Shown here in pieces: positions 9,218 through 28,302 of a DNA stretch of 64,000 nt (the stretch's first letter is position 1; each line of letters opens with the position of its first letter). The translations under genes were made by a program, and so were the position numbers. The stretch is from Chlorobium sp. (lineage in GTDB: Bacteria; Bacteroidota; Chlorobiia; Chlorobiales; Chlorobiaceae), in the NCBI GenBank assembly GCA_005862225.1, contig SZXV01000002.1:248001-312000 (forward strand). The letters run 5' to 3'. A model generated the notes under the pieces. The model saw only the letters and a list, made by a program, of their open reading frames with translations. It was not told the origin of the DNA and made no database searches.

Positions 9218-9241
9218 GTAAAGGTGTTGTAACTCAAAAAG

Positions 9242-12200
9242 CTACTTGAGTTCTCCAAACGTCCGTGCTGCGAGGTATTCGTAATGAGACCAGCGAGCAT
9301 CGACCTCATTCTGGATGGCCGCATAATACTCTTCTGCAAGAGCGGGATGGCTCTTTTTCAGCATTCTGAAGCGGTTTTCCATATTGAGGAACTGCGCAAC
9401 AGGTATTTTTGGCTTTTTCGAATCAAGTATCAGCGGATTTTTTCCTTCAAGCAACCGCTCAGGATTGAAGCGATAGAGTATCCAGTGCCCGGAATCAACA
9501 GCGGCTTTCTGGTTATCGAGAGCCGTTGACATGTTGATACCCTGGGCGATACAGTGTGAATAGGCAATAATAATGGACGGGCCGTTGTAAGCCTCAGCTT
9601 CAAGGAATGCTTTCAGTGTGTGTTCGTCACGGGCGCCAAAGGCAACCGAGGCAACATAGGCATTCCCGTAGCTCATGGAGATCATGCCAAGATCTTTTTT
9701 GGTCACCGAACGCCCGGCAGTCGCAAACTTGGCTACCGCCGCCTTTGGCGTTGCCTTTGATGCCTGTCCTCCGGTGTTTGAATAGACCTCGGTATCAAGC
9801 ACGAGAAGATTGACGTTTTTGTTGCCAGCCGTTATATGGTCAACACCACCATAGCCGATATCATAAGCCCAGCCATCACCACCAACTCCCCAGACGCTCT
9901 TTTTCACAAGCATATCAGCCAGCGAAAGCAAATTTTTGGCATCAGAAGAGTTGATATGAGTGAGTTTCTCCTTAAGAATCGCCACACGCTTTCTCTGCTC
10001 AAAAATTTCCGGTTCATTGCGTTCTGATGCCTCAAGTATCTCCGTAGTCAGCGTATCGCCGATTTCCGCAGACATTCTTTTTAATAGCTCACTGGCATAT
10101 TCACGCTGCTTGTCAATCGAAATTCTGAAGCCAAGCGCAAATTCAGCGGTATCTTCAAAAAGCGAGTTTGACCATGCTGGCCCAAGCCCGCTGGCATTGG
10201 TTGTATAGGGTGTTGTGGGAAGGTTTCCGCCGTAGATTGACGAACAACCCGTTGCATTGCCGATGACAAGGCGGTCACCGAACAACTGCGTCATGAGTTT
10301 GATGTACGGAGTTTCGCCGCAACCCGAACAAGCGCCTGAAAATTCAAACAGAGGGGCCTGAAGCTGCTGTTCCTTGATCAGCTTGACATTGATGTTATTG
10401 CGGTCAAAGTCAGGTATGTTGACAAAATAGTTCCAGTTGTCAACCTCATTGTCGCGCAGCGGAATCTGCGGATTCATGTTGAGGGCTTTTTTCCCCGGAT
10501 TTTTTTTATCTCTTCCCGGGCAGACATGTGCGCACACTTCGCATCCGGTACAATCCTCCGGAGCAATTTGGATGGTGTACATCTTCCCTTCCCAAGTGGC
10601 GCCCTTTGCTTCAATGGATTTAAAGGTGTGCGGGGCGTTGCCAAGGCAATTCTGATCATAGACCTTGACACGGATTGCTGCGTGAGGGCATACCAGTGTA
10701 CATTTCGCGCACTGGATACAGACATCCGGCTCCCAGACGGGGATTTCATCAGCAAGATTTCTCTTTTCAAACTTTGAGGTTCCGGTGGGGTAGGTGCCAT
10801 CTGCGGGAAGCTCGCTGACAGGAATGTCATCACCATTACCGGAAATAATCCTGGCAAGCACATTGCAGACAAAATCGGGCGCCTCACCAACAATCGGCTG
10901 GCGAAGTTCTTTTGCGCTGTTGGCAACGGAGCCAATGGTGACCTGATGCAGGTTGGAGAGCGTATTGTCTACTGCCTGTATGTTCTGGTTGACAACGTCA
11001 TCACCTTTTTTCCCGTATGTCTGTCTGATGGACGACTTGATATTTTCAATAGCCTCTTCACGGGGCAGCACACCGGATATGGCAAAAAAGCAGGCCTGCA
11101 TGATGGTGTTGATGCGCTGGCCCATGCCACTGGTGTGAGCAACCTTATAGGCGTCAATAGTATAGAGTTTCGCCTCTTTGCGGATCAGGTGCTCCTGAAC
11201 AATTTTCGGCAGTTTGTCCCAGAGCTCTTCTGCCCCAAAAGGGGAGTTCAGCAGCAGTGTGCCGCCTTTTTTGAGATATTTAACCAGATCAACCATTTCA
11301 AGAAAAACCCAGTGGTGGCAGCCGATAAACTGTGCCTCGGTAATCAGATATGCGGATCTGATTTCATTGGGGCCAAACCGGAGATGTGACGTGGTAATTG
11401 AGCCAGCCTTCTTTGAATCGTAGACAAAATAACCCTGGGCATAGTTTGGTGTGTTTTCACCAATAATTTTTATGCTGTTTTTATTCGCACCGACGGTGCC
11501 ATCCGAACCAAGCCCGTAAAAGAGAGCCCTGAACATCTCGTCCGGCTCAATTGAGAAGGTTGAGTCAACCTCAAGACTTGTTTTGGTTACATCATCATTG
11601 ATGCCGACCGTGAAGTGGTTTTTCGGCTTTTCGGCACTCAGATTGTCGAAGACTGCCTTGACCATTGCGGGTGTAAATTCTTTCGATGACAGTCCATACC
11701 GGCCACCAACAACGGTTGGAACCGCTTTGATCAATCCATTCTGCACCCCTTCATGCAGGGCGTTGACGATATCAAGATAGAGCGGTTCACCTGCGCAGCC
11801 AGGCTCCTTGACACGGTCAAGAACGGCAATCGAGGTAACCGTTGTCGGGAATGCCTTGACAAAGCGCTCAATATCGAAAGGACGGAAAAGGCGGGCATGG
11901 ATAACGCCAACTTTTTCTCCCTGTTTGTTGAGATATTCCATGGTTTCCCGTGCGGTTTCAACCCCGGAACCCATCAAAACAATAACACGGTCAGCATCTG
12001 GAGCGCCGTAGTATTCGTACAGTTTATAGTGGCGGCCTGTGAGTTCCCCAAATTTCTCCATCACCTTTTCAGTGATTTCCGGGCATGCGTTATAATAACT
12101 GTTGACTGTCTCCCGGCCCTGGAAATAGACATCCGGATTCTGCGATGTTCCCCGAATCACCGGTGCGTCAGGGGTGAGACGCCGGTTTCTGTGTGCTATG

Positions 12201-12799
12201 ACCAGATCATCACTGATCATCTCCTTTATTATTGTATCATCAATGACCTCGATTTTGGAGATCTCATGGGATGTTCTGAATCCGTCAAAAAAATGAAGGA
12301 AAGGAACTCTTGAGGCAAGGGTGGCTGCTGCTGTTATCAACGCCATATCCATAACCTCCTGAACAGAACTTGAAGCCAGAATGGCAAACCCTGTTCCCCG
12401 GACAGACATGACATCGCCATGATCGCCGAAAATGGAAAGCGCCTGTGCGGCAAGAGAGCGCGCCGAAACGTGTATGACACAGGGTGAAAGCTCGCCCGCA
12501 ATTTTATACATATTCGGAATCATGAGCAGAAGACCCTGTGCGGCGGTAAAGGTCGTCGTCAGCGCACCAGTCTGCAACGCGCCATGAACAGCGGCGGCGG
12601 CTCCAGCCTCACTCTGTAATTCATCAATTTTTGGAATGGTACCCCAGATGTTCTTTTTTCCCTCTGTTGACCATGCTTCGGAATACTCCCCCATCGGTGA
12701 TGCCGGAGTAATCGGGTAGATACAGATAACTTCACTGGTTCGATAAGAGACATGAGCCAAAGCTTCATTTCCCTCCATTGTTTTATAAGTCCGGGTCAT
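9242..12799 (-). CDS. nifJ: Pyruvate:ferredoxin (flavodoxin) oxidoreductase
   Basis: A single-chain PFOR of about 1185 residues. Visible parts, in order, are the pyrimidine-binding domain (YPITPASPMGEYSEAW), the transketolase C-like domain, an inserted two-cluster ferredoxin domain (CIQCAKCTLVCP and CTGCEVCAHVCPGRD) and the TPP-binding domain (SGACSGCGETPYIKL and WGVGGDGWAYDIGYGG). In green sulfur bacteria it carboxylates acetyl-CoA to pyruvate with reduced ferredoxin after the reductive TCA cycle. ATG at 12799 was chosen because AGGTGA lies 8-10 nt upstream; a GTG four codons earlier is possible. It is transcribed alone. Confidence 0.97.
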   Translation of the reverse strand: MTRTYKTMEGNEALAHVSYRTSEVICIYPITPASPMGEYSEAWSTEGKKNIWGTIPKIDELQSEAGAAAAVHGALQTGALTTTFTAAQGLLLMIPNMYKIAGELSPCVIHVSARSLAAQALSIFGDHGDVMSVRGTGFAILASSSVQEVMDMALITAAATLASRVPFLHFFDGFRTSHEISKIEVIDDTIIKEMISDDLVIAHRNRRLTPDAPVIRGTSQNPDVYFQGRETVNSYYNACPEITEKVMEKFGELTGRHYKLYEYYGAPDADRVIVLMGSGVETARETMEYLNKQGEKVGVIHARLFRPFDIERFVKAFPTTVTSIAVLDRVKEPGCAGEPLYLDIVNALHEGVQNGLIKAVPTVVGGRYGLSSKEFTPAMVKAVFDNLSAEKPKNHFTVGINDDVTKTSLEVDSTFSIEPDEMFRALFYGLGSDGTVGANKNSIKIIGENTPNYAQGYFVYDSKKAGSITTSHLRFGPNEIRSAYLITEAQFIGCHHWVFLEMVDLVKYLKKGGTLLLNSPFGAEELWDKLPKIVQEHLIRKEAKLYTIDAYKVAHTSGMGQRINTIMQACFFAISGVLPREEAIENIKSSIRQTYGKKGDDVVNQNIQAVDNTLSNLHQVTIGSVANSAKELRQPIVGEAPDFVCNVLARIISGNGDDIPVSELPADGTYPTGTSKFEKRNLADEIPVWEPDVCIQCAKCTLVCPHAAIRVKVYDQNCLGNAPHTFKSIEAKGATWEGKMYTIQIAPEDCTGCEVCAHVCPGRDKKNPGKKALNMNPQIPLRDNEVDNWNYFVNIPDFDRNNINVKLIKEQQLQAPLFEFSGACSGCGETPYIKLMTQLFGDRLVIGNATGCSSIYGGNLPTTPYTTNASGLGPAWSNSLFEDTAEFALGFRISIDKQREYASELLKRMSAEIGDTLTTEILEASERNEPEIFEQRKRVAILKEKLTHINSSDAKNLLSLADMLVKKSVWGVGGDGWAYDIGYGGVDHITAGNKNVNLLVLDTEVYSNTGGQASKATPKAAVAKFATAGRSVTKKDLGMISMSYGNAYVASVAFGARDEHTLKAFLEAEAYNGPSIIIAYSHCIAQGINMSTALDNQKAAVDSGHWILYRFNPERLLEGKNPLILDSKKPKIPVAQFLNMENRFRMLKKSHPALAEEYYAAIQNEVDARWSHYEYLAARTFGELK

Positions 12800-13089
12800 A
12801 CTGGCAGTCACCTGATTTGTATTGATAAAAGGGGTGCGTAACTCTGCAGTGTGCTGATATGTGAACCACGAAGCAACTGTAATAGTTGAGAAAGAATGTT
12901 ACATCCGTAGCCCGAAAAGCAAATCAATGCGTTACAAAAGATATTAAAAAAATTGATTTTTGTTAAATTTAATTAGATTCCGGTTTTTCCCATAGAGATG
13001 TTGCCTGTAAGGCGTTTCCCCTGACGTTTGCAGCCCCCTGCTCTTTGCTTATTTGGCGTCATAACACTTCCAAAGGACAAGAGGTTTAC

Positions 13090-13836
13090 ATGGACACGGA
13101 ACATTCCGAAAATATTGTCTATGGCAGAAATGCCGTTCTTGAGCTTCTCCAGCAGAAACCCGAGAGCATCGAGAAAATCTATTTTCAGTTCAATACCTCT
13201 CATCCGAAACTCAAAGAAATTGTCATCACCTCAAGGCGCCTGAAGCTGGTCAGCGGCAAGGCCCGGCTTGAAAAGCTTTCACTGATTGCAGGCACAACCA
13301 AGCACCAGGGCGTGTGCGCTCTTATCAGCACGGTTACCTACTATTCGCTCGAAGAGGTGCTTGCCAGTCCCCGTAACAGCTCTCCTCTCCTCGTTGTGTT
13401 GCAGGGACTTGATGATCCCCACAATATCGGGGCCATTATCCGGACGGCCGAAGCCGTAGCCGCTGATGCGGTTGTACTGGTCGAAGGCAAGGGCGCGCCG
13501 GTTAATGCTGTTGTTCACAAAGCCGCTGCCGGGGCGCTTTCGCATATAAGAATCTGCAAGGTCAAGAGCCTTGTGCGTGCGCTCGAATTCCTGCACCAGT
13601 GTAATATTCAGGTTCTTGCCGCAGACATGGAGGCGGAACTCAATTACACCGATGCCGACATGAAAAAGGCCACAGCGATTGTGCTTGGTATGGAGGGAAG
13701 CGGCCTGGCGCCTGAGGCCGTGAAATTCTGTGACCATGTTGTTCGCATTCCCATGGCAGGCTGCGTCGAATCCCTGAATGTGAGCGTGACGGCTGGCGTG
13801 CTGCTGTACGAGGCCATGAGGCAGCGGCTTTCCTGA
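13090..13836 (+). CDS. rlmB: 23S rRNA 2'-O-ribose methyltransferase, SpoU/TrmH family (RlmB-like)
   Basis: The 248-residue protein has an N-terminal substrate-binding domain (VYGRNAVLELLQQKPESIEK) and a C-terminal SPOUT knot. The knot carries the three family motifs: LQGLDDPHNIGAIIRTAEA (motif 1 with catalytic Arg), IVLGMEGSGLAP (motif 2) and IPMAGCVESLNVSVTAGVLL (motif 3). RlmB methylates G2251 of 23S rRNA in E. coli. ATG at 13090 was chosen for the conserved YGRNAV start and the upstream GAGG; residues before it are unrelated. A TrmH-type tRNA enzyme is less likely because the N-terminal domain is present. Confidence 0.88.
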   Translation: MDTEHSENIVYGRNAVLELLQQKPESIEKIYFQFNTSHPKLKEIVITSRRLKLVSGKARLEKLSLIAGTTKHQGVCALISTVTYYSLEEVLASPRNSSPLLVVLQGLDDPHNIGAIIRTAEAVAADAVVLVEGKGAPVNAVVHKAAAGALSHIRICKVKSLVRALEFLHQCNIQVLAADMEAELNYTDADMKKATAIVLGMEGSGLAPEAVKFCDHVVRIPMAGCVESLNVSVTAGVLLYEAMRQRLS

Positions 13837-13935
13837 GTTGCCATGCCCTCCGGATTTGAAGGGATTCCAAAAAATATTACCTTGTTTCATTACAAATTTG
13901 CCAGGCTGACTCCATCAACACACATTACTTCTGCC

Positions 13936-14319
13936 ATGACTATCCCTGAAGATCTTCGCTATACAAAAGACCACGAATGGATTAAACTGCTTGAAGACGG
14001 CAGCACCGCACTGGTCGGCATTACTGATTTTGCCCAGTCAGAGCTTGGCGATATTGTTTTTGTTGAGCTGAAAGCTGTCGGAACAACGCTGAAAGAGCAC
14101 GAAGTTTTTGGAACCGTCGAAGCGGTAAAAACCGTTGCCGATCTTTTTGCCCCGGTTGCCGGTGAAATTATTGCGTTAAACGCTGAGCTTGATAATGCAG
14201 AAGTGGTCAATCAGGATCCCTACAATGCAGGCTGGCTTGCCAAAATAAAAGTTGCCGATCCGGCAGCAGTTCAGGCGCTGCTTGACGCAGCGGCATATCG
14301 CCAGTTGACCGGAGAGTAA
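13936..14319 (+). CDS. gcvH: Glycine cleavage system H protein
   Basis: The 127-residue lipoyl carrier starts with [20 protein letters not shown], the family N terminus. The lipoylation site is the Lys in [14 protein letters not shown]. It shuttles the aminomethyl group between the P, T and L proteins of the glycine cleavage complex. The ATG at 13936 fits the family; an earlier in-frame ATG at 13843 would add 31 unconserved residues. It ends 4 nt before gcvPA, so the two are co-transcribed. Confidence 0.93.
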
Positions 14320-14323
14320 GCTC

Positions 14324-15661
14324 ATGCCATTTATAGTCAATACCGAAAACGAACGAAAGGAGATGCTCCGGACCATTGGTGTCAGCTCTTTTGATGATCT
14401 GATTGTCGATATTCCCGAAGAGATTCGCCTGAAAAAAGCCCTTGATATCCTCCCTGCCTCCGATGAGCCCCAGGTTCGCAAACTTCTTGAAAGCCTTGCC
14501 GCATCCAACCGGAACACCTCCGATTATGTGAGCTATCTTGGTGGCGGAGCCTACGACCATTTTATCCCTGCCGCCATTAAAACCATTACATCCCGCAGTG
14601 AATTTTATACGGCATATACCCCTTACCAGGCCGAGATCTCGCAAGGAACTCTTCAGGCAATTTATGAATACCAGAGCTTGATATGCCGTCTCTACGAGAT
14701 GGATGTCACCAACGCCTCCATGTATGATGGCGCGACCGCCCTTGCCGAAGCGGTACTGATGGCCATGAACGTCACTGGCCGGAGTCAGGTTGTGGTGGCA
14801 GGAAAGCTGCATCCCTGGAACAGCGCTGTACTCAAAACCTATCTTGAGGCATCAGGCCATAACGCCGTCATCCAGAATGTTCTTCAGGATGGTGTCGGCG
14901 ATAGTGCGGCGCTGAAAGAACTTGTTGGCGACAGTGTTGCCGCTGTGGTTGTTCAGCAGCCAAACTTTTACGGTTGCCTCGAAGATGTTGAAGCTCTTGG
15001 AGCGATTGCGCATGAAAATGGGGCGCTCTTTATTGTCTCAGCCGATCCGCTCTCGCTTGGCGTGCTGGCAGCTCCAGGCAGTTACGGCGCTGATATTGCT
15101 GTGGGAGAAGGACAGCCGCTTGGAACCCCCCAGAGTTTTGGCGGACCCTACCTCGGCATCTTTACCGTCAAGCAGCCGCTTGTCCGCAAAATTCCGGGAC
15201 GTCTGGTCGGCATGACGAAAGACCGTGATGGCGAGGATGGTTTTATTCTCACCCTTCAGACCCGTGAGCAGCACATCCGGCGCGAAAAAGCCACCTCAAA
15301 TATATGCAGCAACCAGGCGCTCAACGCCCTTCAGGCGGCACTCTATCTGTCGCTGCTCGGCAAAGAGGGGTTACAGCAGGTTGCCGCACAATCAACGCAG
15401 AAAGCACATTATCTTGCAGCGAAAATAGCCGCCATTCCGGGATTTTCCCTGAAGTACACGGCACCCTTTTTCCGGGAATTCGTTGTTGAAACACCAGTTC
15501 CAGCGGCGATTATTGTGGAGCGGATGCTGCAACACCAGATCTTTGCCGGGTACGATCTGGTGGCGCATGGCGAGAGCGGATTGCTTGTTGCCGTTACAGA
15601 GAAACGGACAAAAGAGGAGCTGGATGGTTTTGTAGAAAAGCTTGGGGAGATTGTCGGATAG
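14324..15661 (+). CDS. gcvPA: Glycine dehydrogenase (decarboxylating) subunit 1
   Basis: The 445-residue PLP-dependent protein corresponds to the N-terminal half of GcvP in the two-subunit form. Conserved stretches include [58 protein letters not shown] and the [20 protein letters not shown] region. It decarboxylates glycine with GcvPB and transfers the aminomethyl group to GcvH, encoded just upstream. GcvPB (the PLP-lysine subunit) and GcvT are not in the window; a hairpin and convergent dapA follow. Confidence 0.93.
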
Positions 15662-15673
15662 GCAGTGACGGAA

Positions 15674-15709
15674 CGTTTCAGCTCCCGGCGGAGGCAGGGA
15701 GCTGAAACG
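15674..15709. terminator. Hairpin between convergent gcvPA and dapA
   Basis: A perfect 13-bp inverted repeat (CGTTTCAGCTCCC/GGGAGCTGAAACG) with a 10-nt loop sits between the two stop codons. There is no T run after it, so termination is inferred from position. Confidence 0.5.
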
Positions 15710-15717
15710 GCATCGTA

Positions 15718-16608
15718 TTAAATGAGCCCCAGAGCGCTGAGTTCCTGATCGATAATCAGCTTGTTTGGCTCTGAAAGAGGCACAAGCGGCAGACGGTAGT
15801 TCTCCTCAATCATTCCCATTCGCGACAGCGCATACTTCACCGGCACCGGGTTACTCTCAATAAAGTTCATTTTTAACAGCTTGCGATAGCGGCCGTTGAT
15901 CGACCGTGCCTCCTCAAGATCGCCCCGCCTGACTGCCTCAATCAGTTGCTTGATCTGTGCTGGTATCTGGTTTGCCGCAACAGAAATCGCCCCGTCTCCA
16001 CCCATCGCCATAAAGGGCAGAATCAGCGAATCCTCGCCAGTCAGCACAGAAAAATGGGCAGGCCGCCCCTCAAGCAGCTCAGAGATCTGGCTGATATTTT
16101 CGGAAGCCTCCTTGACCGCCGCAATATTTTCAAAATCATGGGCAAGCCTGAGAATGGTTGATGCCGCAACATTGCAGCCGGTTCTTCCCGGAACATTGTA
16201 GATGATAATCGGCACCGAGACCGCTTCCGCGATATGACGGTAGTGTTGATAGATTCCCTCCTGTGAAGGCTTGTTGTAATAGGGAGAGACCGACAGAATG
16301 GCCGCCGCGCCAGCCTTTTCAGCATTTTTCGCCAGCTCAACCGCATGTCTTGTGTCATTGGTGCCAGCGCCCGCCGCCACCATTATCTTTCCCGCCGCCT
16401 CCTCCCTGACCGTGCGGATGATCTCAATCTGCTCATCACCGGAAAGTGTTGGCGATTCACCCGTTGTGCCACAGGTTATAATAATATCTGTTCCCGCCTC
16501 AATATGAAATTGCACCAGTCTCCTCAAGGCATAACGGTCTATTGACCCGTCCTTGCTGAACGGAGTCACCAGCGCAACGGCGGTTCCTGAAATGTATCGT
16601 GTGGACAT
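15718..16608 (-). CDS. dapA: 4-hydroxy-tetrahydrodipicolinate synthase
   Basis: The 296-residue TIM-barrel protein has the DapA motifs [33 protein letters not shown] (pyruvate-binding Thr-Thr), [14 protein letters not shown] (catalytic Tyr) and [10 protein letters not shown] (Schiff-base Lys). It condenses pyruvate with aspartate semialdehyde in the diaminopimelate/lysine pathway. dapF of the same pathway lies about 30 kb away at 47.0 kb. Length is standard and it is monocistronic here. Confidence 0.95.
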
Positions 16609-16962
16609 GCTTTTTTATCCCGGTAGTATTGAAAATCGTTTTGTTAACCCGGAGAACCTGAGCCCGGCTCTGTTATTGTTCCCGGCAAGAGTGAGAATAT
16701 ACAGAGAAAGGTAATTTGTAAAACCGATTTTCTTGCAAAAGAGTTCTAAAAAGTATTGCAGAGTTCCCGCTTGTGCTTATTGTCGCTGGCTTTCGCCCTG
16801 ATATCGGGCATGAATGTGCTGATCATCATCCCCAAAAAATGGAAATGAGAATTCCGAAAAACATCGATATTGCAGGCACCTGTTTTTTTGATTATACCAT
16901 AAAAATGCCGAATTTAGTCTCTATTCAGTCTTGCGATTACCTGTTTACGAAGAGGAGCCACA
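16609..16962. other. Intergenic region between dapA and the Phd/ParE pair
   Basis: No convincing gene is seen in this 354-nt divergent region. It must carry the dapA promoter and the toxin-antitoxin promoter/operator. No clear operator palindrome was recognised. It is also the left border of the accessory island. Confidence 0.5.
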
Positions 16963-17229
16963 ATGAAACTATCAGAAAGGGTTCGCCCGATTTCCTGGCT
17001 TAAATCTCATGCAGCCGAGATTGTAAGGGATTTTGAAGAGAATCGGAGCCCGCTTATTGTTACCCAGAATGGTGAAGCAAAAATGGTTGTTATGGACATT
17101 CGTACCTACGAAGAGCAGCTTGAAACCATGGCGTTTCTGAAACTCATCAACATGGGCAAAAAAGAGATTTCTGAAGGGAAATTCCAGAGTGTCGAGAATT
17201 TCTTTACTGACCTGGAAAAGGAGGGATAG
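16963..17229 (+). CDS. Antitoxin, Phd/YefM family
   Basis: This 88-residue protein has the Phd/YefM N-terminal DNA-binding fold (SERVRPISWLKSHAAEIVRD, then PLIVTQNGEAKMVVMDIRTY) and an acidic C-terminal tail that neutralises the toxin. The family represses its own operon with the toxin as co-repressor. The stop overlaps the GTG of the downstream ParE-like gene by one base, the usual coupled antitoxin-toxin order. It is the first gene of the accessory island. Confidence 0.9.
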   Translation: MKLSERVRPISWLKSHAAEIVRDFEENRSPLIVTQNGEAKMVVMDIRTYEEQLETMAFLKLINMGKKEISEGKFQSVENFFTDLEKEG

Positions 17230-17558
17230 TGGCGCATTCAGTTTTTATTCTTGACTCTGCGAAAGGTGATTATCGTGAAATCAGGAGCTATGTGCGGCAT
17301 AAATTTGGTGAAAAGGTCTGGAGAGAGTCGGAGCAACAATACAAAGAGGTTTTGAGCAATATCGGAGAGTTTCCTTTTGCCGGTTTTGTTGCTAAGGAGG
17401 CTGTTTCACTTGGCTTGCAAGGGATTCGCGAAAGGCTGGTTGGGCAAACAAGGGTTATTTATGAGGTTGGGGAGCATGAGGTTTATGTCTCCATGTTTGT
17501 CTCCACCCGTCGTGATTTCATGACCATGCTTACTGACCGGCTGCTTAAAAGTGAATAA
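17229..17558 (+). CDS. Toxin, ParE/RelE superfamily
   Basis: The 109-residue protein has the ParE/RelE pattern: AHSVFILDSAKGDYREIRSYV at the N terminus, then a central helix pair and RLVGQTRVIYEVGEHEVYVSMF strands near the C terminus. It starts at GTG 17229, overlapping the antitoxin stop. Family members poison gyrase (ParE) or cleave mRNA on ribosomes (RelE); which applies cannot be decided here. The large DGR target gene starts 58 nt downstream on the same strand, so read-through is possible. Confidence 0.88.
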   Translation: MAHSVFILDSAKGDYREIRSYVRHKFGEKVWRESEQQYKEVLSNIGEFPFAGFVAKEAVSLGLQGIRERLVGQTRVIYEVGEHEVYVSMFVSTRRDFMTMLTDRLLKSE

Positions 17559-17616
17559 CGGCAAGCTATTTCAACGATTATTGTTTTCTGGATGACTTTG
17601 ATTTACCAGATACGCT

Positions 17617-20600
17617 ATGGCTGATAATGGAATAACAAAAGTAAAAATACTTGTTGCCTCCCCCGGTGACGTTGACAGGGAGCGGCAGATTGTAGAGGAT
17701 GTGATAGGAGAGTGGAACATCCGCAATGGTGATGAGCGCAAGATGGTTCTCGAAGCGATACTGTGGGAAAAACATGCGGCGCCTGAAAACTGTGGAGATG
17801 GCGAGGGGCCTCAGGCGCCAATTACCCGCCAGATTGTTGATGATTGTGATTGTGCCATCGGGATTTTCTGGCATCGCATAGGAACACCAACAAAACTTGC
17901 TGAAGGTGGAGCAGTGGAAGAGGTGCAGAGAATGCTGACTGTGCTGAAGCGTCCGGTTATGCTCTATTTTTCGCGAATGCCGATTGCTCTGCATAAAGTT
18001 GATGGAGAACAGGTAAAAAAGCTTGAGGCATTCAAAACATTGATGAAAAAAGATGGATTGGTATGGGAATATGATAATCGGACGAAGTTTCGTACCCATC
18101 TTTCCCGCCACCTTGACAAGCAGATTCGCCAGTGGTTCTGCACTCCCGGTGCGCCAACCGTCAAGCAGTCCATACCAGAGGATGAGGAACTACGCCGCTA
18201 CCAGTCGGCGCTGAAAGAGGAGCTGGGCTACATCCGTATGCTTGGAATGCCCGGAGTTGAATCTGTCAAGGTCAATCTTGATGATGAGACCTTTGTGCCG
18301 TTACGGCTTTCTGACCGGCAGGATATGTTTTCCGGCCAGCCTGAAAAAGATTCTGGAAAGAGGCCCGAAGGAGGCGATCATACTCTCTATCCAGACGCTA
18401 TCATGAAGCGGGCGTTCCATGACCGTCGCCATCGCAGGATGCTTCTCGTTATCGGTGATCCCGGTGCAGGAAAAACAACGCTGCTCAAATATTATGCCCT
18501 TTGTGCGCTTGATTCGGAGAGATCCAGCCGACTTGGATTTTCCGGGCCGGTTAACGTCTTCTATCTGCCGCTGCGCGAGCTTGTCCGCCATGAGAATGGC
18601 CAGTACCACTCTCTTCCTGCAAATCTTGCGCTCTGGTTGGAGCGGAATCAGTTGCCCTTTACAGCAGAGCAGTTCGATCAATGGCTGCAGAGCGGAACAG
18701 CGCTTGTTTTGCTTGACGGGCTTGATGAAATCAGCAATACCGATGATCGAAAAGAGGTGTGCCGGTGGATTGATGCTGCCTGGAAAAGTTTTTCAGCGCT
18801 TCGTTTTGTGGTGACTTCCCGGGCAACAGGGTACCGCCAGGAAGAGGGTGTTGAACTTGCGGCTGATTTTGAACGAGCTGATGTTCAGGACTTTACGGTT
18901 GATCAGCAGGAGCTGTTTTTATTGCAATGGTTTACAGCCGCGTTTCTTAAAGAACCCTGTGACGTTGGTGTTGACGAAGCCGCCTGGCTGGCAAAACAAA
19001 AAGCAAAGGCTGAAGAGCGAACCCGTACCATTGCCAAACACCTGAAAGAGGAGAAGAACAAGGGGTTGCGGCAGCTTGCTGCCATCCCCATGATTCTGCA
19101 GATTATGGCGATTCTCTGGAAAGACCGGGACTATATGCCCGAGAGCCGGGTGAAGCTCTATGAGGCGGCTATTGATTACCTGCTTGAATTCAGGGACAAG
19201 CGCAGAGGGATAACCCCACTTGTTTCGGCCGTGCGTGCCCGTAAAGTGCTTGGGCCGGTCTCTCTGTGGATGCAGGAAGATCTGAAAAAAGATGAGGCCG
19301 AAAAGGAGTCCATGCAGGCAATCATGAAAGAACGCCTGGAGATTCTTGATCATCCCCCGTCAGTCGAGGCGTTCTGTGATTATATGGTGAAACGGGCAGG
19401 CTTGCTTGTGGAGTATGGTGGGGGCAAAGCTTACCTTTTTCGCCATAAATCATTGCGTGAATATCTGGCAGGCGTTCAGCTTGCCAAAAAAGTGAACAGA
19501 ACCCCCGACTCTCTGGATAATCTGGTTTCCGGCTTTGGTGATGACTGGTGGGAAGAGCCGATCAAATTCTTTATTGCCCAGGAAGATGAGGAGATATTTG
19601 ATCTGTTCATGGAAAAGCTGTTCGACTCTCCGGTCAGTGAAGAGCTGACACCAAAAAAGCAGTTCTTGCTGCAAACAATTATTGAAGAGGCGCCTGAAAA
19701 GAAGGTTGATGCGCTCTGTACAAAACTGCTTGACACGGCAACCACAGCCAGCCGTCAGCGGGTGATTCTCGACTGCCTGAAAACCATCGCGAAGCCTGCC
19801 GCACTTTCGGCGCTGGAGCAGTTCATTGCACAACAACTCGATAAAGAGAACGCAGAGAACAGTGATGTTATCGATCGTGCCGAAGAGGTGATTATCGCCC
19901 TCGGCGGAAAAGCGCTTGAACGTGCCACTGAAAAGAGTATCAGCGGTAAACCCTTGTCGATTCGCAACCCGAATGAGCAGAATGCCGAGTATATCCTGAT
20001 ACCGGGAGGCAACTACTGGTATTCGGCAATGAAAAAAACGCTGGATGTTGGTGATTGTTATGTTGCCAAGTATCCAGTGACGAACAAGCTTTACCGCTCA
20101 TTCATCAAGTGGTTGGAAGGAAAAGATTCAGGGAAGAACCATGCCTCATCATACAGGGCAGAACTGGAAAGGATAGCGCAGAGTAACGAATGGGGCCCGG
20201 GGTTTGGCGAGTATCTCAAGGGAGAAAGTGACCTTGCGGCATTGTTTCGTTCAGAAAATGATGAGGATCGCAAATTCGATGGGGATGATCAACCGGTGGT
20301 TGGCGTCACCTGGTATGCTGCCAGCGCCTACTGCCTGTGGCTTTCGATGCTGGAAGGCAAGGCCGCACGTTATCGTCTTGCTCATGAGATAGAGTGGGAG
20401 TGGGCTGCTGGAGGGAAACAGGGCACAATCGGGGAGAAAGTGCGGGAATATCCTTGGCCGGATGAGATGGGTGATGTGAATCCGAAATTGCTGAACTCTT
20501 ACGAAAGCAATATTCATGCCACAACACCAGTGGGCAGCTACCCTGAAGGCGCTACGCCAGAAGGGCTTTATGATATGGCGGGTAATGTCTGGGAGTGGTG

Positions 20601-20787
20601 CTGCGATTGGTATGGAGACGATGGCACTTTTGCCAATCCACTTGGGCCTGAAACTGGTTCTTACCGTGTGCTTCGTGGCGGGAGCTGGAACCTCATCGCC
20701 GAGATCTGTCGGTCGGCGAATCGCTACAGGTCCTCGCCCGACTACCGGAACTTCAACGTTGGCTTCCGCTTGGTCTTCGTCCCGTAG
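17617..20787 (+). CDS. DGR target 1: DUF4062-like, NACHT NTPase and variable FGE-sulfatase domain protein
   Basis: This 1056-residue protein has three parts. Residues about 1-115 look like DUF4062 (KILVASPGDVDRERQIVEDV, then IGIFWHRIGTPT). A NACHT-type STAND NTPase carries Walker A GDPGAGKTT at 280-288 and Walker B ALVLLDGLDE at 362-371, followed by a helical region. From about 785 to the end lies an FGE-sulfatase (C-type-lectin-like) domain. Its last 43 residues (1014-1056) are encoded by VR1. Eight of the eleven template Asn codons are changed here, giving among others Y1016, L1026, I1027, I1030, Y1037, S1039, Y1043 and F1046. Inference: a switch-type sensor whose ligand-binding face is hypermutated. 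No membrane segment was seen. Confidence 0.88.
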   Translation: MADNGITKVKILVASPGDVDRERQIVEDVIGEWNIRNGDERKMVLEAILWEKHAAPENCGDGEGPQAPITRQIVDDCDCAIGIFWHRIGTPTKLAEGGAVEEVQRMLTVLKRPVMLYFSRMPIALHKVDGEQVKKLEAFKTLMKKDGLVWEYDNRTKFRTHLSRHLDKQIRQWFCTPGAPTVKQSIPEDEELRRYQSALKEELGYIRMLGMPGVESVKVNLDDETFVPLRLSDRQDMFSGQPEKDSGKRPEGGDHTLYPDAIMKRAFHDRRHRRMLLVIGDPGAGKTTLLKYYALCALDSERSSRLGFSGPVNVFYLPLRELVRHENGQYHSLPANLALWLERNQLPFTAEQFDQWLQSGTALVLLDGLDEISNTDDRKEVCRWIDAAWKSFSALRFVVTSRATGYRQEEGVELAADFERADVQDFTVDQQELFLLQWFTAAFLKEPCDVGVDEAAWLAKQKAKAEERTRTIAKHLKEEKNKGLRQLAAIPMILQIMAILWKDRDYMPESRVKLYEAAIDYLLEFRDKRRGITPLVSAVRARKVLGPVSLWMQEDLKKDEAEKESMQAIMKERLEILDHPPSVEAFCDYMVKRAGLLVEYGGGKAYLFRHKSLREYLAGVQLAKKVNRTPDSLDNLVSGFGDDWWEEPIKFFIAQEDEEIFDLFMEKLFDSPVSEELTPKKQFLLQTIIEEAPEKKVDALCTKLLDTATTASRQRVILDCLKTIAKPAALSALEQFIAQQLDKENAENSDVIDRAEEVIIALGGKALERATEKSISGKPLSIRNPNEQNAEYILIPGGNYWYSAMKKTLDVGDCYVAKYPVTNKLYRSFIKWLEGKDSGKNHASSYRAELERIAQSNEWGPGFGEYLKGESDLAALFRSENDEDRKFDGDDQPVVGVTWYAASAYCLWLSMLEGKAARYRLAHEIEWEWAAGGKQGTIGEKVREYPWPDEMGDVNPKLLNSYESNIHATTPVGSYPEGATPEGLYDMAGNVWEWCCDWYGDDGTFANPLGPETGSYRVLRGGSWNLIAEICRSANRYRSSPDYRNFNVGFRLVFVP
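20656..20787 (+). repeat. DGR variable repeat 1 (VR1)
   Basis: This 132-bp segment matches the template repeat at 22451-22582 without gaps. Fifteen positions differ: 13 are template adenines (A to T, C or G), and two near the 5' edge (G to T at 20661, T to C at 20671) are not. The 3' 28 nt are invariant, consistent with an initiation-of-mutagenic-homing zone. It ends exactly at the stop codon of target 1. Confidence 0.95.
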
Positions 20788-20942
20788 TTCGGGGGCAGTT
20801 TTCCGGCTTTGCTTTTGAGCTATGCGGAGCAAAGAACAAGGTTGAGGTGCGCAGCAGCGAGGGACGCGCTGCGGCGCACCTCAACCGGGCAGCTTGGCAC
20901 GAACCACAGAAAATGCCGCCGAAGGCGGCCGACCGATATTTT
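20788..20942 (+). repeat. VR-associated structured flank, copy 1
   Basis: This 155-nt segment begins at the base after the VR1 stop and is about 95% identical to 24080-24234 behind VR2. It contains a hairpin CTTTGCT/AGCAAAG (20807-20834). It also holds a very stable hairpin of 13 bp (20840-20852 with 20874-20886) extended by an inner 6-bp stem (20854-20859 with 20867-20872), and a GCCGCC-gaa-GGCGGC hairpin near its end. Post-VR hairpins are known to promote homing in the Bordetella phage DGR; such a role here is inference. It has no coding potential. Confidence 0.85.
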
Positions 20943-20995: not shown

Positions 20996-21457
20996 ATGCA
21001 GATAAAACTGTTTACCATACCCGTCGGTGATAGTGGCGCAGCCCAGCAGGAGATGAACGCCTTTCTGAAGGCGCATAAAATACTGGAAATCGAGCAAAAG
21101 CTGATTAGCAACGACAACGGGGCGTACTGGTGTTTTTGTGTTCGTTACATCGAGACCGCTTTCAACATCGCGTCAGAAAGCAAAGCCAGGGTTGATTATC
21201 GCCAGGTGCTTGATGAGCCAACCTTTCAGAAGTTTACGCATTTGCGTGCCATAAGAAAACAGGCGGCGGCTGCCGAAGGGCTGCCGGCATTTATTGTGTT
21301 TACCGACGAAGAGCTTGCCGAACTTGCAAAACTGGAGGAGATAACCATCAAGAGCATGTTGGGGATAAAAGGAATTGGCGACAAAAAGGTTGAGCGTTAT
21401 GCTCACTATTTTACTGCAAAACCAGAATCCAATGAAGCGACGGGGGCAGTTGCTTGA
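20996..21457 (+). CDS. DGR accessory protein with HRDC-like domain
   Basis: This 153-residue protein sits where DGRs usually carry the accessory gene. Residues about 95-145 look like an HRDC (helicase and RNase D C-terminal) domain: FIVFTDEELAELAKL, then MLGIKGIGDKKVERYAHYF. The N-terminal half has no family I recognise. HRDC-domain genes are known to replace avd in a subset of DGRs, where they probably help the reverse transcriptase bind template RNA or target DNA. Its 3' end overlaps the RT start by 26 nt, so the two are coupled. Confidence 0.8.
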   Translation: MQIKLFTIPVGDSGAAQQEMNAFLKAHKILEIEQKLISNDNGAYWCFCVRYIETAFNIASESKARVDYRQVLDEPTFQKFTHLRAIRKQAAAAEGLPAFIVFTDEELAELAKLEEITIKSMLGIKGIGDKKVERYAHYFTAKPESNEATGAVA

Positions 21458-22436
21458 ACAGATTGCTGATCTGAATAATCTGTACGAAGCTTTTTACAAG
21501 GCGCAAAAAGGCAAGCACTCCAAGCCTTATGTTTGCGCCTACAGAGAGCAGTTGGAGGAAAATTTGCAGATATTACGCCATCAGATTACTTCGGGCGCGG
21601 TTGAGACGGGCAATTATCACACATTCATCATCTATGATCCGAAAAAACGCCTGATTTGCGCTACCCCTTTTGCGCAACGAGTTCTGCATCATGCACTCAT
21701 GAATGTCTGCCATGCCTCTTTTGAGAAACATCAGATCGCAGGCAGTTTTGCAAGCCGTTCCGGCAAAGGCACCTATGCCGCTCTTGACCAGGCAAGGCAG
21801 TATAATCAACGCTATCGCTGGTTTTTAAAACTCGACGTTCGCAAATATTTTGAGAGCATTGATCATGCAATCCTGAAACGGCAGCTTCATCGTCTGTTCA
21901 AAGACCCGCCACTGCTGCGGCTTTTTGAGCAGATTATTGAAAGCTACTCCACCGCAGAGCATAAAAGCCTTCCGATTGGCAACCTGACCAGCCAGTATTT
22001 TGCGAACCACTATCTCTCTGTGGCTGACCATGACGTTATAAGGGTATTACAGGTTCCGGCCTACGTTCGCTACATGGACGATATGGTGTTGTGGCATCAT
22101 GATAAAGAGGCGCTGCTGGCGACAGGCTACAGGTTTCAGGAGTTTCTTGCAAAAGAGTTGCTGCTTGAGCTGAAACCCTTTTGCCTGAACAAAAACAAAA
22201 AAGGGTTGTCGTTTCTGGGATATCTGCTCTACAAAGAGAAAGTACGGCTTGCCCCGCGAAGCAAAAAACGCTTTCTTGCAACATCCCTGCTTTATGACGG
22301 CTACCTGCAAACCGGGCTGTGGTCACAAAAGGCGTTCGCAAACCACGCGATGCCGTTGGTTGCCTTTACCGAATACGCCAATGCAAGAGAATTCAGAAAA
22401 AATGTGTACCGTACAGTGGTGGCCAGTGAAGAATAA
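21432..22436 (+). CDS. DGR reverse transcriptase
   Basis: This 334-residue reverse transcriptase shows DGR-type motifs. The N terminus [11 protein letters not shown]...[12 protein letters not shown] is typical, the catalytic YMDD lies at residues 214-217, and IGNLTSQ at 182-188 replaces the motif-4 sequence of group II intron RTs. It lacks maturase and endonuclease domains. It makes cDNA from the template RNA with errors at adenines and, with the accessory protein, replaces VR sequence. ATG at 21432 was chosen by family start; in-frame upstream codons to 21375 overlap the HRDC gene further. The TR begins 14 nt after its stop. Confidence 0.95.
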
Positions 22437-22450: not shown

Positions 22451-22582
22451 GGTTCGAACCGTGTGTTTCGTGGCGGGAGCTGGAACAACAACGCCGAGAA
22501 CTGTCGGTCGGCGAATCGCAACAGGAACACGCCCGACAACCGGAACAACAACATTGGCTTCCGCTTGGTCTTCGTCCCGTAG
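22451..22582 (+). repeat. DGR template repeat (TR)
   Basis: This 132-bp segment matches both VRs. Read in the VR frame it holds 11 AAC codons, clustered where the VRs differ: S-N-R, then [20 protein letters not shown]. It has 31 adenines; 13 are changed in VR1 and 18 in VR2. AAC cannot mutate to a stop by changes at its two adenines, so diversification never truncates the targets. It lies directly downstream of the RT and is not itself in a real gene. It is probably transcribed as a non-coding RNA with or after the RT message. Confidence 0.95.
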
Positions 22583-22595: not shown

Positions 22596-22792
22596 TCGGA
22601 TGACTGCCTCTGAACAGATTGATGACCCTGTCCCTGATTCTGTCAGGGCAAAGAGCGCCACACACGATGCCCGGCATTGGTAGGACGAGCCGGATAGCCG
22701 TTTCGAAGATGACGGGCATATTTTTTTGAAAAAAGAAACGTTAACTTTCGCTTCAATCGACGTATGCCGCAACCATTAAAAAGAGCGTGACC

Positions 22793-24079
22793 ATGGACGA
22801 ACAGACACCTCCACAATCTGCTTCACCGTCAACACGGGTTGATGAGCTTGACAAAGCCTTTGTAGCAGACCTCATTGAGCAGCCAAAACAGCTTGATAAA
22901 CTTGCCAGACTGGTGCTCATCTTCAGCTTTGTGGTGCCAGTGCTTTATGCCATTGGGTTAAAGTTCTTTTCGAGTTCTGAGTCTGCGCCAAGCGGTCTAT
23001 GGTTTATTGTTGCGGCATTCGCGAGCTGGTTTGTGTCGCTGTTGTTGAGCCTGTTTGGTCTCATCTCCGGAAAAGGGAGGCAGAATGCAGGAGGCAAAGA
23101 AAAATCGGTCAGCGTTGAGGCGCTCTATCAGGCAATCATTCGCTATAAACGGCGAATGCTCATCGGCTCCAGTATCTTCTGTTTTCTTGGCGTTTGCTTT
23201 GCAGGGCTCACTGTTTTCAGCAACGCTTTCCCAACGATGCTGCCAAATCAGGCGCCTCAAAACTTTGTTCTGATACGAGGTGGCGAATTTACGATGGGAA
23301 GCCCTGAGAATGAAGTTGGTCATCAACCGAATGAGACACAGCATCAGGTGAAAGTAAGTGATTATTATATGAGCAAATATGAGGTGACTTTTGCTGAGTT
23401 CAAGCGCTTTATTGCAGAGTCACACTATCTGACAGATGCGGAAAAGGATAGCAAGGATAACGGGAGCTGGATTTTGGATGGTAACGAGGCGAAAAAAGTA
23501 GCGGGAGTCAACTGGCGTCATGGAGTTTCAGGCAAAGAGCGGACACCGGCTGAAGCCAATCATCCGGTGGTTCATGTGAGTTGGAATGATGCCATTGCCT
23601 ATTGCCAGTGGCTGTCGGAAAAAACCGGAAAGTGGTACCGGCTTCCGACCGAAGCGGAGTGGGAATATGCCTGCCGGGCTGGTAGTCGCACACCGTTCAA
23701 TACCGGTGAGAACCTGACTACAGCGCAGGCGAACTACGACGGCAATTATCCATATAACAATAACCGGAAAGGTCAGTATCGGGCGAAGACTGTTGCTGTT
23801 GAGAGTTTTGCTCCGAATAGATTTGGGTTGTATAACATGCATGGCAATGTGTGGGAGTGGTGTGATGATGTGTATGGAGAGAAGTATTATGATGAGTGCA
23901 AGGCGAAGGGTCTTGTTGAAAACCCTGCCGGGCCAGCGCCTGAAACCGGTTCGTTCCGTGTGTTTCGTGGCGGGAGCTGGCGCATCATCGCCGAGCCCTG
24001 TCGGTCGGCGAATCGCGGCGGGAGCACGCCCGGCCACCGGGACGGCATCATTGGCTTCCGCTTGGTCTTCGTCCCGTAG
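22793..24079 (+). CDS. DGR target 2: membrane-anchored FGE-sulfatase protein with variable C terminus
   Basis: This protein of about 428 residues has three hydrophobic segments near residues 37-60, 68-92 and 120-146. A C-terminal FGE-sulfatase/C-type-lectin-like domain follows from about 155 (FVLIRGGEFTMGSPENE, YYMSKYEVTFAEFKRF, WYRLPTEAEWEYACRAG, GNVWEWC). The last 43 residues (386-428) come from VR2. All 11 template Asn codons are changed here, giving F388, R397, I398, I399, P402, G409, S411, H415, D417, G418 and I419. Three membrane segments place the variable domain on one face of the membrane, likely outside the cytoplasm (inference). ATG 22793 is preferred to GTG 22787. Confidence 0.9.
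   Translation: MDEQTPPQSASPSTRVDELDKAFVADLIEQPKQLDKLARLVLIFSFVVPVLYAIGLKFFSSSESAPSGLWFIVAAFASWFVSLLLSLFGLISGKGRQNAGGKEKSVSVEALYQAIIRYKRRMLIGSSIFCFLGVCFAGLTVFSNAFPTMLPNQAPQNFVLIRGGEFTMGSPENEVGHQPNETQHQVKVSDYYMSKYEVTFAEFKRFIAESHYLTDAEKDSKDNGSWILDGNEAKKVAGVNWRHGVSGKERTPAEANHPVVHVSWNDAIAYCQWLSEKTGKWYRLPTEAEWEYACRAGSRTPFNTGENLTTAQANYDGNYPYNNNRKGQYRAKTVAVESFAPNRFGLYNMHGNVWEWCDDVYGEKYYDECKAKGLVENPAGPAPETGSFRVFRGGSWRIIAEPCRSANRGGSTPGHRDGIIGFRLVFVP
23948..24079 (+). repeat. DGR variable repeat 2 (VR2)
   Basis: This 132-bp segment matches the TR without gaps. All 18 differences fall on template adenines: seven A to T, seven A to G and four others to C. No non-adenine position differs, which suggests recent homing from this TR. 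It ends at the stop codon of target 2. Confidence 0.95.
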
Positions 24080-24234
24080 TTCAGGGGTAGTTTTCCGGCT
24101 TTGCTTTTGAGCTATGCGGAGCAAAGAACAAGGTTGAGGAGAGCAGCAGCGAGGGACGCGCTGCGGCGCACCTCAACCGAGCAGGTGGGCACGAACCACA
24201 GAAAATGCCGCCGAAGGCGGCCGACCGATATTTT
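24080..24234 (+). repeat. VR-associated structured flank, copy 2
   Basis: This second copy of the 155-nt segment behind VR1 differs at about seven positions. The 7-bp hairpin (24099-24126) and the GC-rich GAA-loop hairpin are intact. The large hairpin has two changes in its left arm (GGTGCGC to GGAGAGC) that weaken it. The rest of the gap to the Trypco2 gene (24235-24506) shows no gene and probably holds that gene's promoter. Confidence 0.85.
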
Positions 24235-24506: not shown

Positions 24507-25040
24507 ATGGATAATTCGGAATCGAAATTTGGCGAGGACGAAGAAGGTCTTACTATTCTTGGCGCTCTTGCACAACTTAAGGCGGATATCTTCAAGCTTC
24601 AAAGTAAAAACCTGGAAGAAAATACTGAGCCTCTCTTTCTGATAGAAGGAGGAGAAATTGAACTCAAGCTTGTTGCAAAAAAGGATGTCAAAGCCGAGGC
24701 AAAAGGATTGACAAAATTTAAGCTGGTTTTGGCTGGCGGAGAAGCAGGCGGAAGTATTGGCGGAAGCACCTCGCACGAATATTTGCAGACCATCAAAATT
24801 AAGTTCAGCGCATTAATGCCGACACAAAAAGATACATCTCCAGATGTTTCTCCTGGGTCGTTACCGTTGACGTACCCAACGCATTTTTCGCCGACGATAT
24901 CGCCAAGCGTAAAATCGAAATGGAGTGTGTCGCCTATTGTTGATTGGACTGATGTTGTTGTGCAGGACATTAAATTGCCTCAAGTTGAAATATGGCCGAA
25001 AGGATCACTATTCATCCATAAGGATTACTGCGAGCCTTGA
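24507..25040 (+). CDS. Trypco2-domain protein
   Basis: Residues about 12-100 of this 177-residue protein match the Trypco2 (trypsin-co-occurring domain 2) pattern. A helix LGALAQLKADIFKL is followed by strands IEGGEIELKLVAKKDVKAEA and KFKLVLAGGEAGGS, then the conserved S-T-S-H-E segment before a final strand. The Pro/Ser-rich C-terminal part (about 105-177) is not recognised. In published surveys this domain occurs in NTP-dependent conflict systems with trypsin-like proteases, none of which is adjacent here. It lies 430 nt downstream of DGR target 2 on the same strand; a functional link is inference. Confidence 0.7.
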   Translation: MDNSESKFGEDEEGLTILGALAQLKADIFKLQSKNLEENTEPLFLIEGGEIELKLVAKKDVKAEAKGLTKFKLVLAGGEAGGSIGGSTSHEYLQTIKIKFSALMPTQKDTSPDVSPGSLPLTYPTHFSPTISPSVKSKWSVSPIVDWTDVVVQDIKLPQVEIWPKGSLFIHKDYCEP

Positions 25041-25270: not shown

Positions 25271-26725
25271 TTGTTTGAGCAGACATTCAAGAATATTGAC
25301 GATATCCTCCACAAAGACGCAGGCTGCGGCAGTGAGCTTGACTACATTGAGCAGACCTCGTGGATACTTTTTCTCAAGTACCTTGACGACCTTGAAAAGG
25401 AGAAGCAGATCGCGGCGGAGCTCTCCGGCAAACCATACATCCCGCTGCTGAGCCCATATTACCGCTGGGAGTCGTGGGCAGCGCCAAAAACCGCCGATGG
25501 CAAGATTGACCATAACCAGGCGGCGACTGGCGATGATCTCAAGGATTTTGTTGACCGCGAGCTTTTTCCCTACCTGAAAACCTTCAAAACCTCGGCGGAG
25601 AGCTCCGCCACCATTCAGTACAAGATTGGCGAGATCTTCAGCGAGCTGAAAAATCGTGTCCAGAGCGGCTACAACCTGCGTGAAGTGATCAACCGGATTG
25701 ATGAACTCCGTTTTCGTACCAATGCTGAAAAGCATGAGATGAGCCATCTCTACGAGAGCAAAATCAAAAACATGGGCAACGCCGGGCGCAACGGAGGCGA
25801 ATACTACACCCCGCGCCCGCTCATCAAAGCCATTGTCAGGGTTGTCGCTCCTGTTATCGGTCAGAAAATCTACGATGGCGCCGTCGGTTCAGCGGGCTTC
25901 CTCGCCGAAGCTTATGAGTACCTGAAGACAAGCAAGAGCCTTACCACCGGCGATATGGAGATGCTGCAGAAAAGCACCTTTTATGGCAAGGAGAAGAAGG
26001 GGCTGGCCTACATCATCGGCATCATGAACATGATTCTGCATGGCGTTGAAGCGCCAAACATTGTGCATACCAACACCCTCGCCGAAAACCTTGCCGACAT
26101 TCAGGAGCGCGACCGGTTCGACATCATCATTGCCAATCCGCCCTTCGGAGGCAAAGAGCGGGCCGAGGTGCAGCAGAACTTCCCCATCAAGTCGGGAGAG
26201 ACCGCCTTTCTCTTTCTCCAGCACTTCATCAAAATTCTCAAAGCTGGCGGCAGGGCCGGTGTGGTCATCAAAAACACCTTTCTCTCCAATACCGACAACG
26301 CCTCCGTCAGCCTTCGCAAGCTTCTGCTCGAAAGCAGCACCCTGCACACCGTGCTCGACTGTCCCGGCGGCACCTTTCAGGGCGCGGGCGTCAAAACCGT
26401 GGTGCTTTTTTTCGAGAAGGGCGCGCCGACAAAGAGGATCTGGTACTACCAGCTCGACCCCGGTCGCAACCTCGGCAAAACCAACCCGCTGAACGACAAC
26501 GATCTGGCGGATTTCGTTGAGTTGCAGAAAAGCCGCGCCGATTCAGCAAAATCGTGGAGCCTGAGCATGGCAGACGTTGACCGCACAACGTGGGATCTTT
26601 CGGTCAAGAATCCCAACAGTGGCGGGGAGGTGGCGCATCGCACGCCGCAGGATATTATGGAGGAGATTGCTGCGCTGGATGCGGAGAGCGCGGGGGTGCT
26701 GGAGAAGATTCGGGGGCTGTTATGA
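25271..26725 (+). CDS. hsdM: Type I restriction-modification system, methyltransferase subunit
   Basis: This 484-residue protein has the HsdM N-terminal helical domain (FKNIDDILHKDAGCGSELDY, EQTSWILFLKYLDDLEKEK). The N6-adenine methyltransferase core follows, with YDGAVGSAGFLAEAYEYL as SAM motif I and IIIANPPFGGKERAE as the catalytic NPPF motif. It methylates the hemimethylated site chosen by HsdS. The start is TTG at 25271 with GGGAG upstream. The 230 nt before it contain an unrecognised reading frame ending at 25276 (FEIDNEGIITSLVGQQQREE), possibly a gene remnant. The stop overlaps hsdS by 4 nt. Confidence 0.93.
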   Translation: MFEQTFKNIDDILHKDAGCGSELDYIEQTSWILFLKYLDDLEKEKQIAAELSGKPYIPLLSPYYRWESWAAPKTADGKIDHNQAATGDDLKDFVDRELFPYLKTFKTSAESSATIQYKIGEIFSELKNRVQSGYNLREVINRIDELRFRTNAEKHEMSHLYESKIKNMGNAGRNGGEYYTPRPLIKAIVRVVAPVIGQKIYDGAVGSAGFLAEAYEYLKTSKSLTTGDMEMLQKSTFYGKEKKGLAYIIGIMNMILHGVEAPNIVHTNTLAENLADIQERDRFDIIIANPPFGGKERAEVQQNFPIKSGETAFLFLQHFIKILKAGGRAGVVIKNTFLSNTDNASVSLRKLLLESSTLHTVLDCPGGTFQGAGVKTVVLFFEKGAPTKRIWYYQLDPGRNLGKTNPLNDNDLADFVELQKSRADSAKSWSLSMADVDRTTWDLSVKNPNSGGEVAHRTPQDIMEEIAALDAESAGVLEKIRGLL

Positions 26726-27855: not shown

Positions 27856-27925
27856 GCATGAAGCAACAAAACCAGCTCTCTGTTTGAACGATTATGGTAA
27901 CACACTGTCCCAGATATTATTGGGG

Positions 27926-28213: not shown

Positions 28214-28302
28214 TGGTTCTCCTTGTGCAAAAGGTGGTAAGAGAAAATTTTGTATTTTAAAATAATGAAATTTCAACAGATTTTTTTGTTTGCAACTCAG
28301 CG

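Follow-up and report, generated by a model that had tools for sequence, protein, structure and literature searches.

Diversity-generating retroelements (DGRs) that diversify STAND sensors with a C-type lectin (CLec) fold, act on targets in trans and serve proteins with modular N-termini have already been published (PMC10907252, PMC7159879), and immunity by DGR was proposed earlier (PMC10053308). The systems of Doré et al. 2024 (PMC10907252; reverse transcriptase (RT) clade 5D) come from multicellular bacteria, with Chlorobi mentioned among the hosts. They combine a DGR, a central NACHT/nSTAND domain and a C-terminal CLec/FGE domain that carries the variable repeat (VR). In addition, their N-termini are modular (some are TIR domains), some of their targets lie in trans, and their sensors are cytosolic as well as periplasmic. 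Multi-VR DGRs had also been described from Chlorobium and Pelodictyon (PMC3521204, 2012). Here we analyze the gene at 17617..20787 of a 64,000-nucleotide stretch of Chlorobium sp. DNA (contig SZXV01000002.1, positions 248,001 to 312,000; the window), which encodes a DUF4062-like/NACHT/FGE protein and is the first target of a DGR beside it. The protein shares the layout of the Doré systems and, compared by architecture, differs from them in its DUF4062 NADase-family N-terminus, its Chlorobiaceae-wide radiation and its two RT lineages. The term DUF4062 has 0 occurrences in the text of Doré et al. (PMC10907252), and a literature search of limited range found no report of a DUF4062 version of a DGR-diversified NACHT/CLec sensor, and among the papers covered none deals with DUF4062 and retroelements together.

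DUF4062 proteins are reported to be TIR-like NADases (PMC13174449). Among them, KpSwz (Swarozyc; Osinski et al. 2026 preprint, PMC13174449) acts by abortive infection, proposed to proceed through NAD+ depletion, and its residue E97 is required for phage defence. KpSwz shares with our protein the DUF4062 TIR-like domain and the conserved position of the catalytic glutamate. However, it has about 330 residues and its own auxiliary domain that binds the phage portal, and it is without NACHT, FGE domain or DGR; the main text of the preprint mentions neither FGE nor retroelements. A Swarozyc protein consists of a short DUF4062 and a C-terminal portal-binding domain, whereas the window protein has 1056 residues and ends in NACHT plus FGE. 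The animal proteins TEP1, NWD1, NWD2 and NPHP3 also have DUF4062 beside a NACHT switch, placed like the CARD in APAF-1 (PMC13174449), but continue into WD40 or other C-terminal repeats, with no hypermutated FGE and no DGR. The antiphage STANDs Avs and bNACHT have the same order of effector, STAND NTPase and C-terminal sensor (PMC10907252); their known sensors are germline-fixed, whereas the sensor tip of the window protein is under targeted mutagenesis. Finally, the DGR of TvpA from Treponema denticola (2y3c; PMC4891356) resembles ours in the FGE-type CLec fold, the C-terminal VR, the HRDC accessory gene overlapping the RT gene and the presence of remote targets; TvpA, unlike our protein, lacks a fused NACHT switch or effector.

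The gene is an open reading frame with an ATG start. It lies on the + strand, as do all its parts and the other features of the DGR locus described below. The 1056-residue product has no hydrophobic segment by hydropathy and is therefore predicted to be cytosolic. From N- to C-terminus it consists of a candidate effector, a NACHT NTPase and a putative sensor, the order of effector, NTPase and sensor. The first-pass annotation had read this gene as a hypermutable NACHT sensor. That reading is partly supported: the coordinates, strand and start codon are as described, the NACHT switch and the hypermutation of the C-terminal end hold, and the DUF4062-like N-terminus remains a plausible effector, as detailed below.

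A 135-nt repeat occurs in three copies, at 20656, 22451 and 23948. The middle copy, preceded by the RT gene, is the template. In the template repeat (TR; 22457..22582), 31 positions are adenines, most of which belong to AAC codons when read in the VR frame. VR1 (20662..20787) ends at the stop codon of the NACHT gene and differs from the TR at 14 of 126 nt. Template adenines account for 13 of these sites (binomial P 1.3e-7, with 31 adenines in the 126-nt repeat), and the single non-adenine difference sits in the 5' part of VR1. VR2 (23954..24079), in the second local target, has 18 differences over the same length, all at template adenines (P 1e-11). In the FGE tip, 18 codons contain positions that are adenines in the TR. 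AAC codons are frequent in the TR, and changes at A cannot turn them into stops.

The RT gene (21432..22436; 334 residues from the ATG at 21432) matches RVT_1 at E 2e-16 and the PHROG RT at E 2e-84. Its product has the motif IGNLTSQ, which fits the (I/V/L)GxxxSQ definition of DGR RTs (PMC3521204), as well as YMDD for the YxDD motif. The RT gene is overlapped by a gene for an HRDC-domain accessory protein (20996..21457; 153 residues; Pfam HRDC, E 2.5e-14), of the kind known in Treponema DGRs (PMC4891356). RT, TR, HRDC gene and two local targets make a complete DGR. The regions around VR1 and VR2 have 300 nt in common at 90% identity, extending beyond the stop codons. Long inverted repeats stand 3' of VR1 (20840..20886) and VR2 (24132..24178). 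Such a hairpin is found 3' of all four VRs, counting two remote ones described below, with one stem sequence at VR1 and VR2 and others at VR3 and at VR4; no like hairpin was found in the TR flank. For many DGRs, a hairpin or cruciform with unconstrained stem sequence is reported 3' of the VR; in that of BPP-1, efficient homing depends on this hairpin, whose stem can vary in sequence (PMC3240598). By analogy, the structures seen here, as candidate hairpins or cruciforms, may act in target recognition, although their stems are longer than in phage DGRs and lie about 50 nt from the VRs, compared with 4-34 bp there. They may also serve as terminators. An Rfam scan of the window gave no match.

The C-terminal domain (residues 790-1053; 19984..20775) has an FGE/CLec fold and matches Pfam FGE-sulfatase at E 3e-43. 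It aligns with the TvpA variable protein (2y3c), gap-free in the VR part, and the variable codons of the window gene fall on the variable end of TvpA. Among 12 homologues, the mean entropy at positions of AAC/AAT codons is 2.48 bits, compared with 1.07 at the other VR positions and 0.94-1.00 in other parts of the protein, the pattern expected of a binding face that is exposed and tolerates change. The TvpA alignment and the hypervariability thus argue for exposure of the variable residues. The earlier proposal that hypermutation is directed at the FGE end of the protein is borne out by the comparison of TR and VRs.

The strong FGE-sulfatase match could also be taken to mean that the domain is an enzyme, of the formylglycine-generating or sulfoxide-synthase type, whose substrate range the DGR tunes. 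However, of the Cys-x4-Cys pair of FGE enzymes only the second residue is kept (C1031); the first is L1026, at a DGR-variable position that is N in the TR, I in VR2 and mixed in relatives. Because a catalytic Cys position is a DGR-variable codon, the domain is probably a binding scaffold, and an enzymatic role is hardly credible.

The NACHT domain (residues 274-441; 18436..18939; Pfam E 2e-12) has an intact Walker A motif, GDPGAGKT (residues 280-287; 18454..18477), and an intact Walker B motif, LVLLDGLDE (residues 363-371, ending in D370/E371; 18703..18729). In the full-length AlphaFold2 (AF2) model, this part aligns with the animal NLRs NLRC4, NLRP3 and NOD2 at Z 17-21. Homologues with a non-functional P-loop, which the first-pass annotation had named as evidence against a STAND/NACHT switch, were looked for; the P-loops were found conserved instead, also in full-length relatives.

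The N-terminal domain (residues 9-172; 17641..18132) is a DUF4062/TIR-like domain and a candidate NADase effector. PADLOC PDC-S60 matches exactly these residues at E 1e-27. A search of the PDB with the single sequence gave nothing useful, whereas a profile of 26 sequences, the domain and its relatives, has the solved DUF4062 structure of KpSwz as its top PDB match (E 2.5e-6). In addition, plasmid proteins annotated as 'DUF4062 domain-containing' align with 90% of the domain's length at about 40% identity. Residue E102 (codon 17920..17922) is invariant across the 26 divergent DUF4062 domains, and so are S15, D18, R23, E51 and G89. The deposited KpSwz chain carries Ala where the profile has the invariant Glu. 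As an E97A structure of KpSwz is described (PMC13174449), we read this Ala, by count from the alignment, as the mutated E97A site. E102 would then align with the catalytic Glu of an experimentally tested NADase and is a candidate catalytic glutamate.

The AF2 model of the domain (pLDDT 82.9) consists of five beta/alpha units and places E102 at the start of the helix following the third strand. Foldseek returns a mixed list of flavodoxin, TIR and NDT folds; a second structure comparison ranks nucleoside hydrolases and TIRs first (Z 10-12), among them TIR-STING and plant NLR TIR domains. KpSwz is absent from the list of fold neighbours. In the model, the domain has a five-stranded, TIR/nucleosidase-like alpha/beta fold. 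It is probably an NAD-destroying front end.

Within the phylum, matches were found in 39 of 296 genomes, mostly within the same bacterial family, and the named relatives are Chlorobium and uncultured Chlorobiaceae. The window type of DUF4062 domain is present in 28 of 65 distinct NACHT-FGE proteins. The other N-termini include a metallophosphoesterase, a second DUF4062 type, ParA-Mrr-NACHT-DUF4062, AlbA_2 plus HATPase, and membrane segments; in all, about ten classes sit on a constant NACHT-FGE body. On a FastTree phylogeny, the N-terminal class changes about 22 times by parsimony, compared with at least 31 in shuffles. The class appears partly inherited and often swapped. Compared with its closest homologue, in locus L042, the window protein is 91% identical in the NACHT, 53% in the N-terminal domain and 62% in the VR. 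One further N-terminal domain, 'IFIGHSDDA...', is common to several members (L085:7570-10743, L106 and L115); it has no Pfam match alone and is a candidate effector.

Eight DUF4062-NACHT-FGE proteins in six genomes carry adenine-biased DGR VRs that are adenine-only or nearly so: those of the window, L088, L089, L091, L093 and L095, and two in L103. Relatives show VRs altered at adenines only, at 9 to 25 sites and without decay; that of L088 matches a TR on a different contig of its genome with 25 changes, all at adenines. The RTs that serve such targets belong to two lineages, 41% identical. At L089 (G181, 1334-18315), two complete DGR cassettes lie within 17 kb, together with a third TR-like copy (7850-7982) that has no gene assigned to it. 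A viral scan found only short DUF4062 proteins, without NACHT or FGE; those on the viral or prophage contigs L125-L133 have 250-430 residues, a Swarozyc-like size.

The second local target (22787..24079) is a protein of 430 residues with three transmembrane (TM) segments and an FGE domain (Pfam E 2.5e-64) predicted to be periplasmic by hydropathy and the positive-inside rule. Two remote VRs in the genome of the window resemble the window TR. In a TIR_2-TM-FGE protein (G000:C4 166776-168230, L009:10777-12231), 16 of 19 VR changes are at TR adenines; in a TM-FGE protein (C3:58572-59672), 18 of 22 are. Hydropathy predicts the tip with VR2 and both remote tips outside the cytosol, and that with VR1 inside. 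The same two-compartment point was made for Thiohalocapsa (Doré et al., PMC10907252). The TIR-TM-FGE protein has a Toll-receptor-like topology, with a DGR-type VR in the outer domain. A further VR-like copy (G000:C4:61590, FGE only) was rejected as a DGR target, its mismatches being spread over all bases.

The same genome has a second DGR (G000:C4 532811-540502, L066), in which two membrane-type NACHT-FGE targets flank RT and TR and both VRs are changed at adenines only. About 70 kb from it, a gene at G000:C4 606191-611959 (L067:4192-9960) encodes a protein of 1922 residues with ParA-like, Mrr nuclease, NACHT, DUF4062, second NACHT and FGE domains, and thus two P-loops in one chain. Its VR differs from the TR of the second DGR at 18 positions, all adenines.

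Directly 5' of the NACHT gene lies a Phd/ParE-type toxin-antitoxin pair (16963-17558). Farther 3', a type I restriction-modification set (25271-32456; M 25271-26725, S 26590-27855, R 30111-32456) is split by an IrrE-like/DUF4411 pair (28303-29920). Between the DGR and this set, a Trypco2-like protein (24507..25040, + strand; Pfam Trypco2 E 5e-5, just under the cut-off) is a possible partner in the locus.

We propose that the protein is a DGR-diversified, single-polypeptide, NLR-like cell-suicide receptor. Each cell lineage could bear a different ligand-binding face on the FGE tip. A putative cytosolic ligand, most likely a phage protein, would fit the tip, which would then free the NACHT switch to exchange nucleotide and oligomerize. 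The N-terminal DUF4062/TIR-like domains would thereby be brought together and could hydrolyze NAD+, so that the infected cell would die or stall ahead of phage release. The same DGR would also vary the membrane-anchored FGE sensor and probably the remote ones, including TIR-TM-FGE; one template would thus feed several receptors in two compartments. The diversity would be made in advance and sorted by population survival. The first-pass annotation called such recognition adaptive, an inference on its part; there is no sign of memory. We hold the whole chain to be broadly right with moderate confidence. In its favor we also count the toxin-antitoxin and restriction-modification neighbors, the exchange of N-terminal modules on a constant NACHT-FGE body, the remote TIR-TM-FGE target and the recurrence of DGR-linked DUF4062-NACHT-FGE proteins.

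Several points weigh against this proposal. The Pfam DUF4062 model scores the N-terminal domain at E 0.09, under the family cut-off; the assignment is right nonetheless, because of the profile match to KpSwz and the identity to annotated plasmid proteins. The FGE part of the full-length AF2 model has a pLDDT below 40, and exposure of the variable residues therefore rests on homology. VR3 and VR4 have 3 and 4 non-adenine differences from the window TR, so the exact template may instead be a sequence related to it; trans action of this very TR is likely, though the fit is not clean. Receptors varied at random would be expected to cause autoimmunity, and no explanation of its avoidance was found. 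The ligand of the tip is hypothetical. Finally, we infer DGR activity in this strain from one assembly. This last point, together with the non-adenine difference in the 5' part of VR1, would fit a relic with an old adenine pattern, in which VR1 is now fixed and the protein a NACHT sensor of the ordinary, germline-fixed kind. We give that little credence, as the RT is intact with its catalytic YMDD, VR2 has no change outside adenines, and the adenine-only VRs of the relatives are without decay.

The tip might instead read signals of self or neighbors, such as surface molecules of kin, partner or consortium, with the NACHT/DUF4062 output steering development or aggregation and not phage defence. 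Some Chlorobiaceae are members of consortia. Of the four VR-bearing targets of the window TR, three look membrane-anchored or exported, and in other systems, too, DGR targets with an FGE fold are often membrane proteins (PMC3521204). However, the NACHT target has no membrane segment, the N-termini of the family (DUF4062, Mrr nuclease, AlbA_2, metallophosphoesterase) resemble lethal or conflict effectors, and the closest bacterial DUF4062 protein that has been studied acts against phages (PMC13174449). We consider this explanation unlikely, if the most serious of the alternatives. It is also quite improbable that the DUF4062 domain is dead, or serves in oligomerization or as an adaptor only, with the effector elsewhere and recruited, for example, through the Trypco2-like neighbor. 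Conflict systems with peptidase effectors are described as containing Trypco2 (PMC7159879), TIR-like domains are not always enzymes, and of several human DUF4062 proteins purified, TEP1 alone is called active in the part of that report available to us (PMC13174449). Yet no Trypco2 homologue was found in the related loci searched, no peptidase gene is among the annotated genes near the locus, and E102 and the five other invariant residues are kept in all 26 divergent domains.

In a single gene, a targeted-mutation engine, an NLR-type switch and a NADase-family head are united, and the DUF4062-NACHT layout of animal TEP1 and NWD1 is linked to a bacterial protein with a sensor under targeted randomization. 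The layout with its randomized tip suggests a receptor that makes diversity in advance, with a putative immune role. Whether DGR-diversified STAND proteins are anticipatory immune receptors becomes testable with this gene, by point changes in E102, K286 and the AAC-derived codons of VR1. A wider possibility, which we put forward tentatively and with some doubt, is that a single retroelement maintains a standing stock of immune receptors whose heads destroy NAD, in two compartments: the NLR-like DUF4062-NACHT-FGE in the cytosol and the Toll-receptor-like TIR-TM-FGE in the membrane. Heads would be exchanged and tips randomized across a whole bacterial family. If true, bacteria would possess an anticipatory immune system based on a repertoire of receptors.

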